Assembly (NCBI RefSeq): GCF_030689645.1
Contig: NZ_JAUYFU010000099.1
Location: 1 to 54,583 of the forward strand
Direction of reading: 5' to 3'
From: Humidesulfovibrio sp.
GTDB lineage: Bacteria > Desulfobacterota > Desulfovibrionia > Desulfovibrionales > Desulfovibrionaceae
Length of the DNA stretch: 54,583 bases
The position numbers and the translations under genes are program-made. The notes beneath the pieces are model-generated. The model ran no database searches. It was not told the origin of the DNA and was given only the letters and a program-made list of their open reading frames with translations. Positions 50,732-54,583 of this stretch are shown here, piece after piece; the first letter of the stretch is position 1, and each line of letters opens with the position of its first letter.

Positions 50732-50760
50732 TTGACTGCACACGTTCAACAGGTTACTGT
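50732..50760 (+). promoter_or_regulatory. Candidate promoter of the binding-protein/cyclase pair
   Basis: TTGACT (50732-50737), 17-base spacer and TACTGT (50755-50760). A second, weaker pair, TTGATT (50770) and ATTAAA (50793), is downstream. Both lie in the AT-richer 200-base leader before the binding-protein gene. Confidence 0.4.
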
Positions 50761-50764: not shown

Positions 50765-50861
50765 AGGCTTTGATTTGAAAACTTATCTAATGATTAAACT
50801 CCCTGCTCTCTCCCCCCCCGATAGAGAGCGCAACCTAGCCAGACTCTTCCTGTAGGGAACC

Positions 50862-52124
50862 ATGCGCACACCGAGCCGCCACTCAACGTTTATCACCCTG
50901 GCATGCTTAACTATATTATGCTCTGCCTGTTCACGTGACACAAGCCCTAAAACCTGCACGGACCCGCTAGGGTGCGTAGACATCGCTCCCAAGGAAGAGT
51001 TGAAGCTTGGGGTCATTCAATCCTTAAGCGGAAAAATCGCTGCGCTTGGACAAGAGCAGGTGCGCGGGTTTGAATTGGCCCTGGCACGCAGAGGCGACAA
51101 AGTGCTGGGGCACAAGGTCGCCCTCCAAGTGGAGGACACAGGCTGCCAGCCCGAGGGCGGGGCCAACGCGGCGCTCAAGGTCGTGGCCGACCCCAAAGTG
51201 GTCGCCATCTTCGGCACCACCTGCTCAAGCGATGCGGCAACCGCCGCGGAAGTAATGACAAAGGCCGGGCTCACAATGATTTCCGGCAACAATTCTGCCC
51301 CATTCCTTACAGCCATCGGCGGACAGCGAGCACCAAGGTGGCAGGAGGGCTACTTCCGCACAGCGCCCAACGAAGAGTCATCCGGACCAGCAGCAGCCAC
51401 CTACGCCTACCAAAAGCTCGGCATCCGCAAGGCCGCCACCATCAACGATGGCGACATCTACACAAGAGGTCTTACTGATGGGTTCGCCAAACGGTTCAAG
51501 GAACTTGGCGGACAGGTCGTATTGAACGCGACTGTGAGCAAGCAGGACACCAATATGGGACCAGTGCTCACCGCAGTGAAGCACGCAAAGGCTGACCTGA
51601 TATTCTTCCCCCTGTTCCAGCCCGAGGGAAACCATGTCCTGCTTCAGGCGCGCCGCGACCCGGCTTTGAAAAAGACGGTGCTTATGAGCGACGGTTCCCT
51701 GATTGAGCAGAGCTTCATCGAAGCCATGAAAGACGATGCCGTGGGTATGTACTTTGTTGGCCCCACGCCGCCGCAAAATGGCCCCGCCCTGGACAAACTG
51801 AGAAGCGAGTGCCTGGCGCGCTTTCAGACACCACCTGCAACCTACTATTACACCAGCGCCTTCGATGCGGCAGAGATTCTCTTCGCCGCCATTGAGAAAG
51901 CTGGACAACCGGCTCCAGACGGCACTGTGCATATCGGCAGAAAGGCCTTGCGCGATGCGCTTTACGCCACGCGCAACCATGAAGGCATAACCGGGCGCAT
52001 CAGCTGTGACGAATTTGGCGACTGCGCCTCGCCGAAATTCAACGTGCTTCAACTCATGGACCCCGCCGCTGGAGTTGAAGGGCTTAAATCCAACGTCAAA
52101 TTCACTTACAGCCCTGTGCCATGA
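50862..52124 (+). CDS. Periplasmic ligand-binding lipoprotein, LivJ type
   Basis: Branched-chain amino-acid-type binding protein of 420 residues with a lipobox (ILCSACS, lipidated cysteine about residue 23). The bilobal family fold begins at ELKLGVIQSLSGKIAALG and contains VEDTGCQPEGGANAALKVV and MTKAGLTMISGNNSAPFLT. Several extra cysteines (KTCTDPLGCVD, FGTTCSS, ISCDEFGDC) are unusual. No permease or ATPase follows; instead its stop overlaps a membrane diguanylate cyclase (ATGA). This points to a sensing protein that presents a ligand to the cyclase rather than a transporter component. The ligand is unknown. Confidence 0.85.
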   Translation: MRTPSRHSTFITLACLTILCSACSRDTSPKTCTDPLGCVDIAPKEELKLGVIQSLSGKIAALGQEQVRGFELALARRGDKVLGHKVALQVEDTGCQPEGGANAALKVVADPKVVAIFGTTCSSDAATAAEVMTKAGLTMISGNNSAPFLTAIGGQRAPRWQEGYFRTAPNEESSGPAAATYAYQKLGIRKAATINDGDIYTRGLTDGFAKRFKELGGQVVLNATVSKQDTNMGPVLTAVKHAKADLIFFPLFQPEGNHVLLQARRDPALKKTVLMSDGSLIEQSFIEAMKDDAVGMYFVGPTPPQNGPALDKLRSECLARFQTPPATYYYTSAFDAAEILFAAIEKAGQPAPDGTVHIGRKALRDALYATRNHEGITGRISCDEFGDCASPKFNVLQLMDPAAGVEGLKSNVKFTYSPVP

Positions 52125-53854
52125 ACATCCTTGGCCGTGTGATCCGCTCTTGGCAGAACCTCGGCGTCACCGCCAAGTTTGCTTTGTCCTTCACACTGCT
52201 TTTCAGCATGATACTGGTCGAGGCTGCTGTGAGCCTATTGGCCCTGGGAGATGTGCGCCAAGCGGAAGCCGTCATCCTGACCAGTGTTGAGATCCGGCAA
52301 CGGGTCTTCGAAATGGACGGTCAACTGGAAAAGGCGCGCCGACTTCATCGTGATTTCTTCCTGCAATACCCGCACATAGGCTTCATGGCCGCGCAGGAGC
52401 TCTACTTCAAGCCATCAACGGAAATCATAAGCAATGTGGTGGCCTCCAGTGAGGAACTCAAACGTCTTATCGAAGGCTCCCAGGTTAGCAACGCCCTGCG
52501 CGAACGCAACAATGACCTGACCCTTTACCTGACCACGGCACGGCGGTTTTCTGACATATTCCGGGAACTCGTTTCCCTGGTCACGGTGCTGGCCGCGCCA
52601 GCCACTGGACTGGAAAGCCAATTGAACGAGTTGGAAGCAAAACTTGAAAAGCATTCCAAACAATCTCCAGCAACCCTTTTAGCATTCCGTCAAATGGCGC
52701 TGCACCAACGCCAGTACATGGTCACCCGACAACGGCCCTTCATGCAGTCAGCCATGAACTCCTGCCTGGAACTGCGCTCCGCGCTCACAGCCCAGGGTGG
52801 ACAAGCCAACGCAGACAAAGAAAACGTATCGATGCTCCTTGCGCAGTACGTGGAAGTGGCGCGACAGATTCCAGACATCGACGTGGCCATCCGTAGCAAA
52901 CTCAACGATTTCAATTTGCAAGCCAGGGCCGTTGACCCCATTTCCGCAAATCTCAAGACCCTGGCCACCGATGAGGTGAACAGGGCCCGCGCAAGAATCG
53001 CCATAGCCAGCAGAGTCTCCACCGCCATCATCGTAGCCACGGCCTTAACCGGATTGTGCTTTGTCCTTTTGGTGGCCGCCATCATTCACGCCAGCGTGAC
53101 CCGCAAACTTGTAGCGCTTACTCGCTCTGCGGAGCAGATGCGCGCCGGGCATCTGGACGCCAGAGTAGAAACCGAAGCCCGCGACGAGGTGGGGGTGTTG
53201 GGCGCAAGCTTCAACGAGATGGCCAGCCGCATGAAACAGTTGGTGGGCAACCTCGAACACATGGTACAGATGCGCACGGCGGAACTCACCGATACCCGAG
53301 ACCGCCTTGAAACGCTGGTCATTGAACTGGACGAGAAGAACCAAGCCCTGGAGATCCTGTCCGTAACCGACAGGCTCACCGGGCTAGCAAATCGCCGCAA
53401 GCTTGAGGCCTCACTCCAATCAGAGCTCCTGCGAGCCCGCCGGTACGGCAAGACTTTCTCCATCATCATGCTCGATGTGGACCGCTTCAAAGCCGTCAAC
53501 GACACCCACGGGCACCAGGCGGGCGATGAGGTTCTAAAGCATCTTGCCGATCTTTTGCGCCGCAACGCCAGGGAAACGGACATCGTAGGCCGGTGGGGCG
53601 GTGAGGAGTTTCTCGTCATCTGCCCAGAAACCACCCTGCTGGTGGTAACGGCCCTGGCCGAACGCTACCGCATTGAGATGGAGCGCAGCGATTTCGGCGC
53701 AGTGGGCCAAGTGACTTCAAGCTTTGGCGTTACAGCCACTCAGGAGGGCGACGATATCCATCTCCTGGTGCGCCGCGCAGATGAAGCACTTTACCGGGCT
53801 AAAGAATCAGGCCGCAATCGCGTGGAGTCCGACCAGTCCCGTGCTTTACATTAG
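52121..53854 (+). CDS. Membrane diguanylate cyclase with HAMP domain
   Basis: Inner-membrane signalling enzyme of 577 residues. TM1 is about 19-41, a helical periplasmic domain about 42-300, TM2 about 301-325, HAMP about 320-372 and a coiled coil about 375-412. The GGDEF domain (about 413-575) has LDVDRFKAVNDTHGHQAGD and the active GGEEF (493-497). RETD (484-487) is an inhibitory I-site for c-di-GMP, so product feedback is likely. Its gene overlaps the upstream binding-protein gene by ATGA. The periplasmic domain probably senses the lipoprotein or its ligand; the helical pattern suggests a four-helix-bundle sensor. Confidence 0.92.
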   Translation: MNILGRVIRSWQNLGVTAKFALSFTLLFSMILVEAAVSLLALGDVRQAEAVILTSVEIRQRVFEMDGQLEKARRLHRDFFLQYPHIGFMAAQELYFKPSTEIISNVVASSEELKRLIEGSQVSNALRERNNDLTLYLTTARRFSDIFRELVSLVTVLAAPATGLESQLNELEAKLEKHSKQSPATLLAFRQMALHQRQYMVTRQRPFMQSAMNSCLELRSALTAQGGQANADKENVSMLLAQYVEVARQIPDIDVAIRSKLNDFNLQARAVDPISANLKTLATDEVNRARARIAIASRVSTAIIVATALTGLCFVLLVAAIIHASVTRKLVALTRSAEQMRAGHLDARVETEARDEVGVLGASFNEMASRMKQLVGNLEHMVQMRTAELTDTRDRLETLVIELDEKNQALEILSVTDRLTGLANRRKLEASLQSELLRARRYGKTFSIIMLDVDRFKAVNDTHGHQAGDEVLKHLADLLRRNARETDIVGRWGGEEFLVICPETTLLVVTALAERYRIEMERSDFGAVGQVTSSFGVTATQEGDDIHLLVRRADEALYRAKESGRNRVESDQSRALH

Positions 53855-53975: not shown

Positions 53976-54330
53976 GGGGGCGCACCGGTTTCGACGGGGA
54001 CAGTCGATGCCGTGGTTGCAGGTCGAGGCGCCGCTGGCCTCGTAAAAAGCGGCAAGCACTCAAGTGCCAACGACTACGATTACGCTCTGGCTGCTTAATA
54101 ACCAGTCACGATCCTTCTGACCGACGTCCGATACGTCCTTAGGATCGACAAAACCTCATCGGGACGGCGTGCAAATGGTGTCTGCCGTATGCACGCGGCA
54201 CAAGGCAGACGTGTCGTTTCGTGCCTGAACAGGGGCCAATGAGACGACGAGAATTGTACCTGTTCTAAACCTGTAGACGCCGCGCGCAAAGCATTCTCGG
54301 ACGAGGGTTCGATTCCCTCCGCCTCCACCA
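53976..54330 (+). ncRNA. ssrA: Transfer-messenger RNA (tmRNA)
   Basis: RNA of 355 bases that frees stalled ribosomes with SmpB. The 5' GGGGGCG pairs with CGCCTCC before an encoded ACCA (G-T third pair), giving the tRNA-like acceptor; the T arm is GAGGGTTCGATTCCCTC. The resume codon GCC is at 54066, and the reading frame gives the tag ANDYDYALAA followed by two TAA stops (54096-54101). The YALAA ending is what ClpXP recognises. Intervening sequence folds into pseudoknot-like regions. A terminator follows at 54368. Confidence 0.96.
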
Positions 54331-54367
54331 GAAGAACTTCCCAGAGAGTCCCAAGAGTCCCACAAAG

Positions 54368-54389
54368 CCCCGCAAACGCGGGGTTTTTT
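54368..54389 (+). terminator. Terminator after ssrA
   Basis: CCCCGC and GCGGGG arms around AAAC, with T6. It ends the ssrA transcript and separates it from the integrase. Confidence 0.85.
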
Positions 54390-54444
54390 GTTGCTTATGC
54401 CTCCCTATGGTTCCCGTAAGGTCCGTTGACATCCGCTATAAAAG

Positions 54445-54503
54445 TGGTATCTCCGTTGGTATCTCGCTCCGAGACACCCGCCAAACGACGGATGGAGATA
54501 CCA
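54445..54503. repeat. Inverted repeat that can mask integrase ribosome site
   Basis: TGGTATCTCC (54445-54454) is a perfect inverted copy of GGAGATACCA (54494-54503), which contains the GGAG ribosome site of the integrase gene. A second partial copy, TGGTATCTC (54457-54465), could pair with the same site. The arrangement fits an RNA hairpin or a protein-binding array. Confidence 0.5.
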
Positions 54504-54583
54504 ATGAAGCTCACCGACGCCGCCATAAAGAACGCTGCCGCCAAGGAAAAGCAATACACCCTCTTTGACGAAAAGGGCCTCTT
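54504..54583 (+). CDS. Integrase, N-terminus only (partial)
   Basis: Only the first 26 codons lie in the window. They start MKLTDAAIKNAAAKEKQYTL, typical of the N-terminal arm-binding segment (DUF4102) of P4-type tyrosine integrases. ATG 54504 follows GGAG by six bases. It lies 173 bases after the 3' end of ssrA, the favoured target of such integrases, so it probably belongs to a genomic island or prophage that continues beyond the window end. The catalytic residues cannot be seen. Confidence 0.75.
   Translation, partial: MKLTDAAIKNAAAKEKQYTLFDEKGL

Follow-up and report, generated by a model that had tools for sequence, protein, structure and literature searches.

A 54,583-nucleotide (nt) contig of Humidesulfovibrio sp. 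(assembly GCF_030689645.1, contig NZ_JAUYFU010000099.1, positions 1 to 54,583; hereafter the window) encodes a LivJ-type binding lipoprotein of 420 amino acids (aa; 50862–52124, + strand), proposed to be the ligand-sensing subunit, and directly after it a membrane diguanylate cyclase of 577 aa (52121–53854, +). The Liv-type solute-binding protein is very probably a dedicated sensory subunit of the membrane cyclase receptor. The first gene matches Peripla_BP_6 (E 3e-45), the second matches HAMP and GGDEF above the Pfam cut-offs, and the two share a 4-nt ATGA stop/start overlap (52121–52124, +). No permease gene adjoins the pair in the window; the upstream neighbour is a tRNA-Met gene with a terminator-like hairpin and the downstream neighbour is the tmRNA gene. 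This agrees with the initial annotation, made from the sequence alone, which described a LivJ-type binder without a transporter partner whose stop overlaps the start of a HAMP-GGDEF gene. Its proposal that the two form a ligand-to-cyclic di-GMP (c-di-GMP) sensor pair is strongly supported by genomic linkage, matching presence and absence of the two genes, a split between transport and sensing relatives, and the predicted fold of the sensor.

Conservation of the gene pair

Among 149 genomes of the family, an orthologue of the binding protein (E≤1e-160) was found in 23, with the next match at E 8e-39 and 32 % identity. The sensor domain of the cyclase (E≤1e-90) was found in exactly the same 23 genomes, and in all of them (22 relatives and the window) the sensor protein is encoded directly downstream of the binder. 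The −4 spacing between the genes recurs in 10 of the 22 relatives. Across 297 genomes of the phylum, four had the sensor and the same four had the binding protein at E<1e-190. Five weaker sensor matches in the family (E 7e-28 to 6e-6), all from genus g5, occurred without this binding-protein orthologue. Three of these five genomes encode a different LivJ-type binder after the distant sensor homologue, and L287, the single g5 receptor put through a domain scan, proved to be a hybrid kinase.

When GTDB genomes were scanned with the alignment of binding proteins, 75 loci emerged, most of them from Desulfobacterota by title and some repeating contigs of the 149-genome search. A homologous sensor is encoded downstream on the same strand in 69 of the 75, beginning −14 to +348 nt from the binder stop wherever both positions could be located. 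Of these 69 partners, 21 carry GGDEF, 47 are long proteins and one is a broken gene (L154). Two of the six loci lacking a sensor reach a contig end (L122 and L155), one has Liv permeases (L146), and in the remaining three (L153, L156 and L158) the binding protein is broken or chimeric, with L158 lying beside kinase fragments. The co-occurrence of a binding protein and a membrane GGDEF protein is thus a conserved arrangement. Two or three tandem binding-protein genes precede a single sensor kinase gene in L133, L142 and L144, suggesting several inputs per receptor.

Separation of sensing and transport relatives

A further 17 genomes of the phylum lack the sensor and encode a binding protein of the sister clade, the nearest relatives (E 1e-68 to 1e-117). 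LivH and LivM follow the binder in all 17, LivG in 16 and LivF in 15, and the missing LivG and LivF fall where the stretch ends. On the sensor-clade side LivH or LivM adjoins the binder only in L146, and neither adjoins a sensor-paired binder in the stretches examined, the window binding protein included; in L070 a LivH gene lies ~8 kb away beside a different binding protein. On a binding-protein tree of 84 rows (66 sensor, with L122 placed by kinship only, and 18 transport, including L146), the difference between sensing and transport required one change, with a support of 95 in the SH-like approximate likelihood ratio test (SH-aLRT). One row of the sister clade, L269, forms a long branch. 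L146 and L144 are intermediate at clade-specific positions, with L144 nearest the transport side.

Predicted structures and proposed mechanism

The AlphaFold2 (AF2) model of the binding protein had a predicted local distance difference test (pLDDT) score of 92 and matched LivK (3td9) with a VIA Z of 39.0 over 346 aligned residues at 2.9 Å, and leucine-bound 4n0q with Z 37.6. The protein is therefore LivJ-like in both fold and sequence. As read from the sequence, it begins with a signal peptide (50862–50930, +) containing a lipobox-like LCSAC, in which Cys23 is the predicted lipidated residue. An aligned cysteine is present in 58 of 66 sensor-clade proteins. Seven of the 22 family orthologues (L067–L073) have an N-terminal hydrophobic segment instead of the lipobox cysteine, which may serve either as an anchor or as a signal that is cleaved; lipid anchoring is thus not universal.

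The ligand contacts of LIVBP are Ser79, Thr102, Tyr150, Tyr202 and Glu226. S122, S145 and Y200 of the window protein align with contact positions and are identical or conservative, and Phe252 aligns with Tyr202. The cleft residues are strongly conserved. Relative to the transport-side proteins, the sensor clade carries conserved changes that include G142, N143, D198, K227, Q253, D277-G278 and C32/C38. The binder thus resembles LivJ/LivK in its fold, one cysteine pair and several cleft positions, and differs in lacking an adjacent permease and in these changed positions. Neighbouring genes of the 75 loci were searched for a clue to the ligand, with binder, partner and antisense frames set aside. 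The commonest group, ABC-ATPase-like by eye, reached only 15 of 75 loci and other groups occurred in small sets of loci only, so the neighbourhood gives no ligand clue. In L146, from a Chloroflexi metagenome-assembled genome (7013–15101), a sensor-like binder lies in a full Liv operon followed by an ornithine-cyclodeaminase-like and a FAD-oxidoreductase-like open reading frame (ORF), both named by eye; these only hint at an amino-acid-like substrate.

The cyclase has two transmembrane (TM) segments by eye (~aa 19–41 and ~aa 301–322), and between them an extracytoplasmic sensor domain predicted to be helical (~aa 42–305; 52244–53035, +). HAMP (aa 323–372; 53087–53236, +; Pfam E 1.2e-11) and GGDEF (aa 415–567; 53363–53821, +; Pfam E 2.5e-45, with the same coordinates in the genome scan) follow. 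The inhibitory site is RETD, of the RxxD type (aa 484–487; 53570–53581, +), and the active-site motif is GGEEF (aa 493–497; 53597–53611, +). Both motifs are intact, and all 29 members of the GGDEF clade described below have an RxxD-type site and GG[DE]EF. The sensor model (aa 36–312) was all helical with a pLDDT of 89. Its top natural-protein match was McpS (VIA Z 16.7, 212 aligned, 2.4 Å), with TorS (Z 15.0, 215 aligned, 2.9 Å), McpZ (Z 14.9) and the TorS chain from its complex with TorT (Z 14.1, 217 aligned, 3.2 Å) also matching. Even at E 0.1, each Pfam family matched at most 4 of the 69 sensor members, and the matches listed (best 25 of 38) included no receptor-sensor family; one of the 47 kinase partners (L135) had a 4HB_MCP_1 match below the cut-off. 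A helical-bimodular (HBM, TorS-like) fold is likely, not secure, for this model.

We infer a mechanism extending to ligand class, docking, TM signalling and the sign of the response. Outside the inner membrane, the lipoprotein would catch a small ligand, probably an amino-acid-like one, and close, and the closed form would dock on the cyclase's helical-bimodular periplasmic domain, like TorT on TorS. A change in the sensor helices would then pass through TM2 and HAMP to the geometry of the GGDEF dimer and alter c-di-GMP synthesis, raising or lowering it. The RxxD site would confer product inhibition.

Exchange of output domains

The 47 long partners contain HATPase and receiver domains in every case and HisKA in 46, and are therefore hybrid histidine kinases. 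Sensor and binding-protein trees were reconstructed with 74 rows each (28 GGDEF, 46 kinase). The distribution of GGDEF and kinase outputs needs two changes on both trees, of which the starred branches alone force one. The two trees have 37 of 71 splits in common and their distances correlate with r 0.84; this agreement could be explained by common descent alone. On the sensor tree, Fundidesulfovibrio kinases (L095 and L064) and L107 are nested inside the GGDEF group. A profile made from the kinases of L059 (the G023 locus, also L107), L064 and L065 scored ~500 on L095 and L107, as expected. Apart from L144 (268), the remaining partners scored below 50 or gave no match. The L095, L064 and L107 kinases therefore look like a separate acquisition.

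A REC-GGDEF gene lies directly after the kinase gene in Fundidesulfovibrio (L065/L095) and in L064, which has the same genus code, and three genomes with that code (G075, G118 and G130) retain a receptor cyclase. The GGDEF tree, made by a quick method without bootstrap, held 86 of 88 rows after two short rows were dropped. One exclusive clade (29 of 86 rows, SH-aLRT 95) contains 26 partners, the window and the two REC-GGDEFs, with the 57 others outside. Transfer of the receptor's cyclase domain onto a receiver would be the simplest reading, for a tree that gives no direction of change. A REC-GGDEF gene ~4 kb past the kinase in L059/G023 was also considered as a case of rewiring and was rejected, its GGDEF lying outside the partner clade.

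On balance we lean towards a plug-in module of the Desulfobacterota, in which a Liv-type binder was captured once by an uncatalogued helical sensor and the output was later rewired. In one lineage the receptor would have lost its cyclase domain to a receiver encoded, in the same operon, after a hybrid kinase of separate origin; a one-step receptor cyclase would in this way have become a phosphorelay that kept both the input and the output enzyme. In L138 (10024–11532) the sensor kinase gene overlaps at its end with an HDOD-GGDEF gene, and in L116 (11006–12727) the sensor kinase gene is followed by a GGDEF gene that matches Cache weakly. Both are possible further c-di-GMP outputs of the same front end.

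Alternative explanations

The helical domain of the cyclase might bind a ligand directly, as McpS binds malate, leaving the binder as a modulating input or scavenger. McpS, the top fold match, has a direct-binding HBM domain, and the sensor does have conserved polar residues (Arg142, Tyr199, Arg203, Arg205, Gln209, Asn213 and Asp263). However, such a receptor needs no obligate neighbouring binding protein, and the exclusive co-occurrence and single transport/sensor change favour the binder as the input; we regard direct sensing as unlikely. It is still less probable, to the point of being hard to credit, that the lipoprotein still works in transport with Liv permeases from other loci and shares no more than a transcript with the cyclase. 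The genome has five PF02653 permease pairs, every one on a contig other than that of the gene pair, and four of them adjoin a Peripla_BP_6 protein of their own (contigs C60, C77, C73 and C38), which argues against a transport role, as does a sensor pairing kept across the phylum without adjacent permeases. The fifth, at C73:31666–33452, has no adjacent Peripla_BP_6 protein, no search for its binder having been made, and is the point in favour of this explanation.

Sensing of redox or envelope state through cysteine pairs, in place of a solute, is very improbable. Six mature cysteines are conserved as three pairs, and the N-terminal pair (C32 in 64 and C38 in 65 of 67 binding proteins) is nearly confined to the sensor clade (63–64 of 66 against 1 of 18 on the transport side). 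However, C95 and C121, present in 67 of 67, align with the LivJ cysteine pair; C382 and C388, also in 67 of 67, occur in 17 of 18 transport-side relatives; and the cleft is conserved, all of which fits a structural role. C317 is unique to the window among the 67 proteins. The initial annotation had noted extra cysteines in the mature protein and suggested disulfide control: the cysteines are there, mostly as three family-wide pairs, and nothing was found in support of the control.

Several observations weigh against a binder acting on an HBM-like cyclase sensor. The LIVBP Glu226 column holds Gly278 in 65 of 66 sensor-clade proteins and, because of this, an amino-acid ligand is uncertain despite the neighbouring Asp277 (present in 57). 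Helical models receive high structural scores by default, and designed bundles appeared among the VIA rows for the sensor at Z 13.4–15.3. Foldseek returned no significant sensor match, the best being a designed bundle (E 0.007) followed by McpS (E 0.013), and a sensor profile run against the sequences of solved structures found nothing at E≤0.1. Two of the five distant g5 sensors had no LivJ-type binder within the 12-kb stretch, and L153 had no sensor in 3.6 kb beyond its broken binding protein. Genomic linkage by itself is no proof of interaction.

Upstream region and neighbouring genes

A promoter-like element lies upstream of the pair (50732–50760, +), with TTGACT at 50732, a 17-nt spacer and TACTGT at 50755, and it recurs in relatives. 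The pattern TTGACT-N17-TA was present in 6 of 98 stretches upstream of binding-protein genes, the window counted, against a mean of 0.36 and a maximum of 2 in letter shuffles. This control is not independent, because the pattern was picked after four of the six instances had been seen; the six include L063 and L093, which are one contig, and some contigs are present twice in the set. A generic sigma-70 scan of the upstream region found no promoter. A 7-nt inverted repeat, GCTCTCT...AGAGAGC (50805–50829, unstranded), had been described as a palindrome over the likely promoter. The conserved promoter-like element lies ~45 nt upstream of it, 36 of 500 letter-shuffled versions of the region contained at least one repeat with such short arms, and by eye no counterpart was found upstream of the binding-protein genes of 10 relatives. 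That description is not supported, and the repeat is probably no component of the system.

The region 53976–54583 holds the tmRNA gene and, after it at the window end, an ORF from ~54503 that is tyrosine recombinase-like by eye. A tmRNA gene (ssrA) with a recombinase is a usual site of ssrA-integrated genomic islands. Elsewhere in the same genome, on the − strand in each case, other LivJ-type binders adjoin receptors. One lies by a histidine kinase with a Cache domain and by an ORF that looks receiver-like by eye (L074, contig C57, 4428–8443), close to a molybdopterin-oxidoreductase-like gene, also by eye. Another adjoins a hybrid kinase (L075, C76, 2828–7557), and a third is encoded with a Cache-HAMP-PAS-GGDEF-EAL protein with a 4-nt overlap (L076, C47, 919–5252). 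A below-cut-off binder fragment at a contig end lies upstream of a dCache-HAMP-PAS-GGDEF gene (L079, C108, 6040–8371).

Relation to known systems

To our knowledge, few diguanylate cyclases have known inputs. TorS has a hybrid kinase output and TorT comes from another type-I branch, ArtI is a transport protein encoded at a different locus, and NspS is PotD-like. Stimulation of kinases, chemoreceptors and cyclases by binding proteins is an accepted mechanism in the sources cited (PMC8846402, PMC11113362, PMC6321045, PMC9602780, PMC8967002). In the NspS-MbaA system of Vibrio cholerae, a periplasmic binder likewise regulates an inner-membrane GGDEF protein and ligand state alters c-di-GMP; there the ligands of NspS are polyamines and MbaA combines GGDEF with EAL as a dual enzyme, in contrast to the Peripla_BP_6 binder and GGDEF-only, HBM-like-sensor cyclase of the window (PMC8967002). 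TorT-TorS, which senses trimethylamine N-oxide, is described as a binder acting on an all-helical sensor, here with a fold match of Z 14–15 (PMC6321045). The kinase-output relatives of the window pair are its nearer analogues. ArtI-STM1987 of Salmonella resembles the pair in that an amino-acid binder is required for a diguanylate cyclase response and differs in the dCACHE sensor reported for STM1987 (PMC8846402). Similarly, PstS of Pseudomonas aeruginosa is described as stimulating an HBM-domain receptor, CtpL, which differs in its chemoreceptor output and phosphate ligand (PMC6321045). The relevant part of the review PMC8846402 names SBP_bac_3 alone as studied among binding-protein-clan domains within GGDEF, EAL or HD-GYP proteins.

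The principle of a cyclase activated by a solute-binding protein is therefore known, and what is new here is the combination of a LivJ-type input, an HBM-like sensor and a GGDEF-only output. This pair was not described in the titles found in open-licence literature and may still be published elsewhere. Ligand discovery is direct, because the input is a separate, purifiable binder of a well-understood family. The swapped outputs and the transport-linked sister clade provide a tractable case of a transporter-type protein turning into a sensor, and of how one-component signalling may become a phosphorelay.

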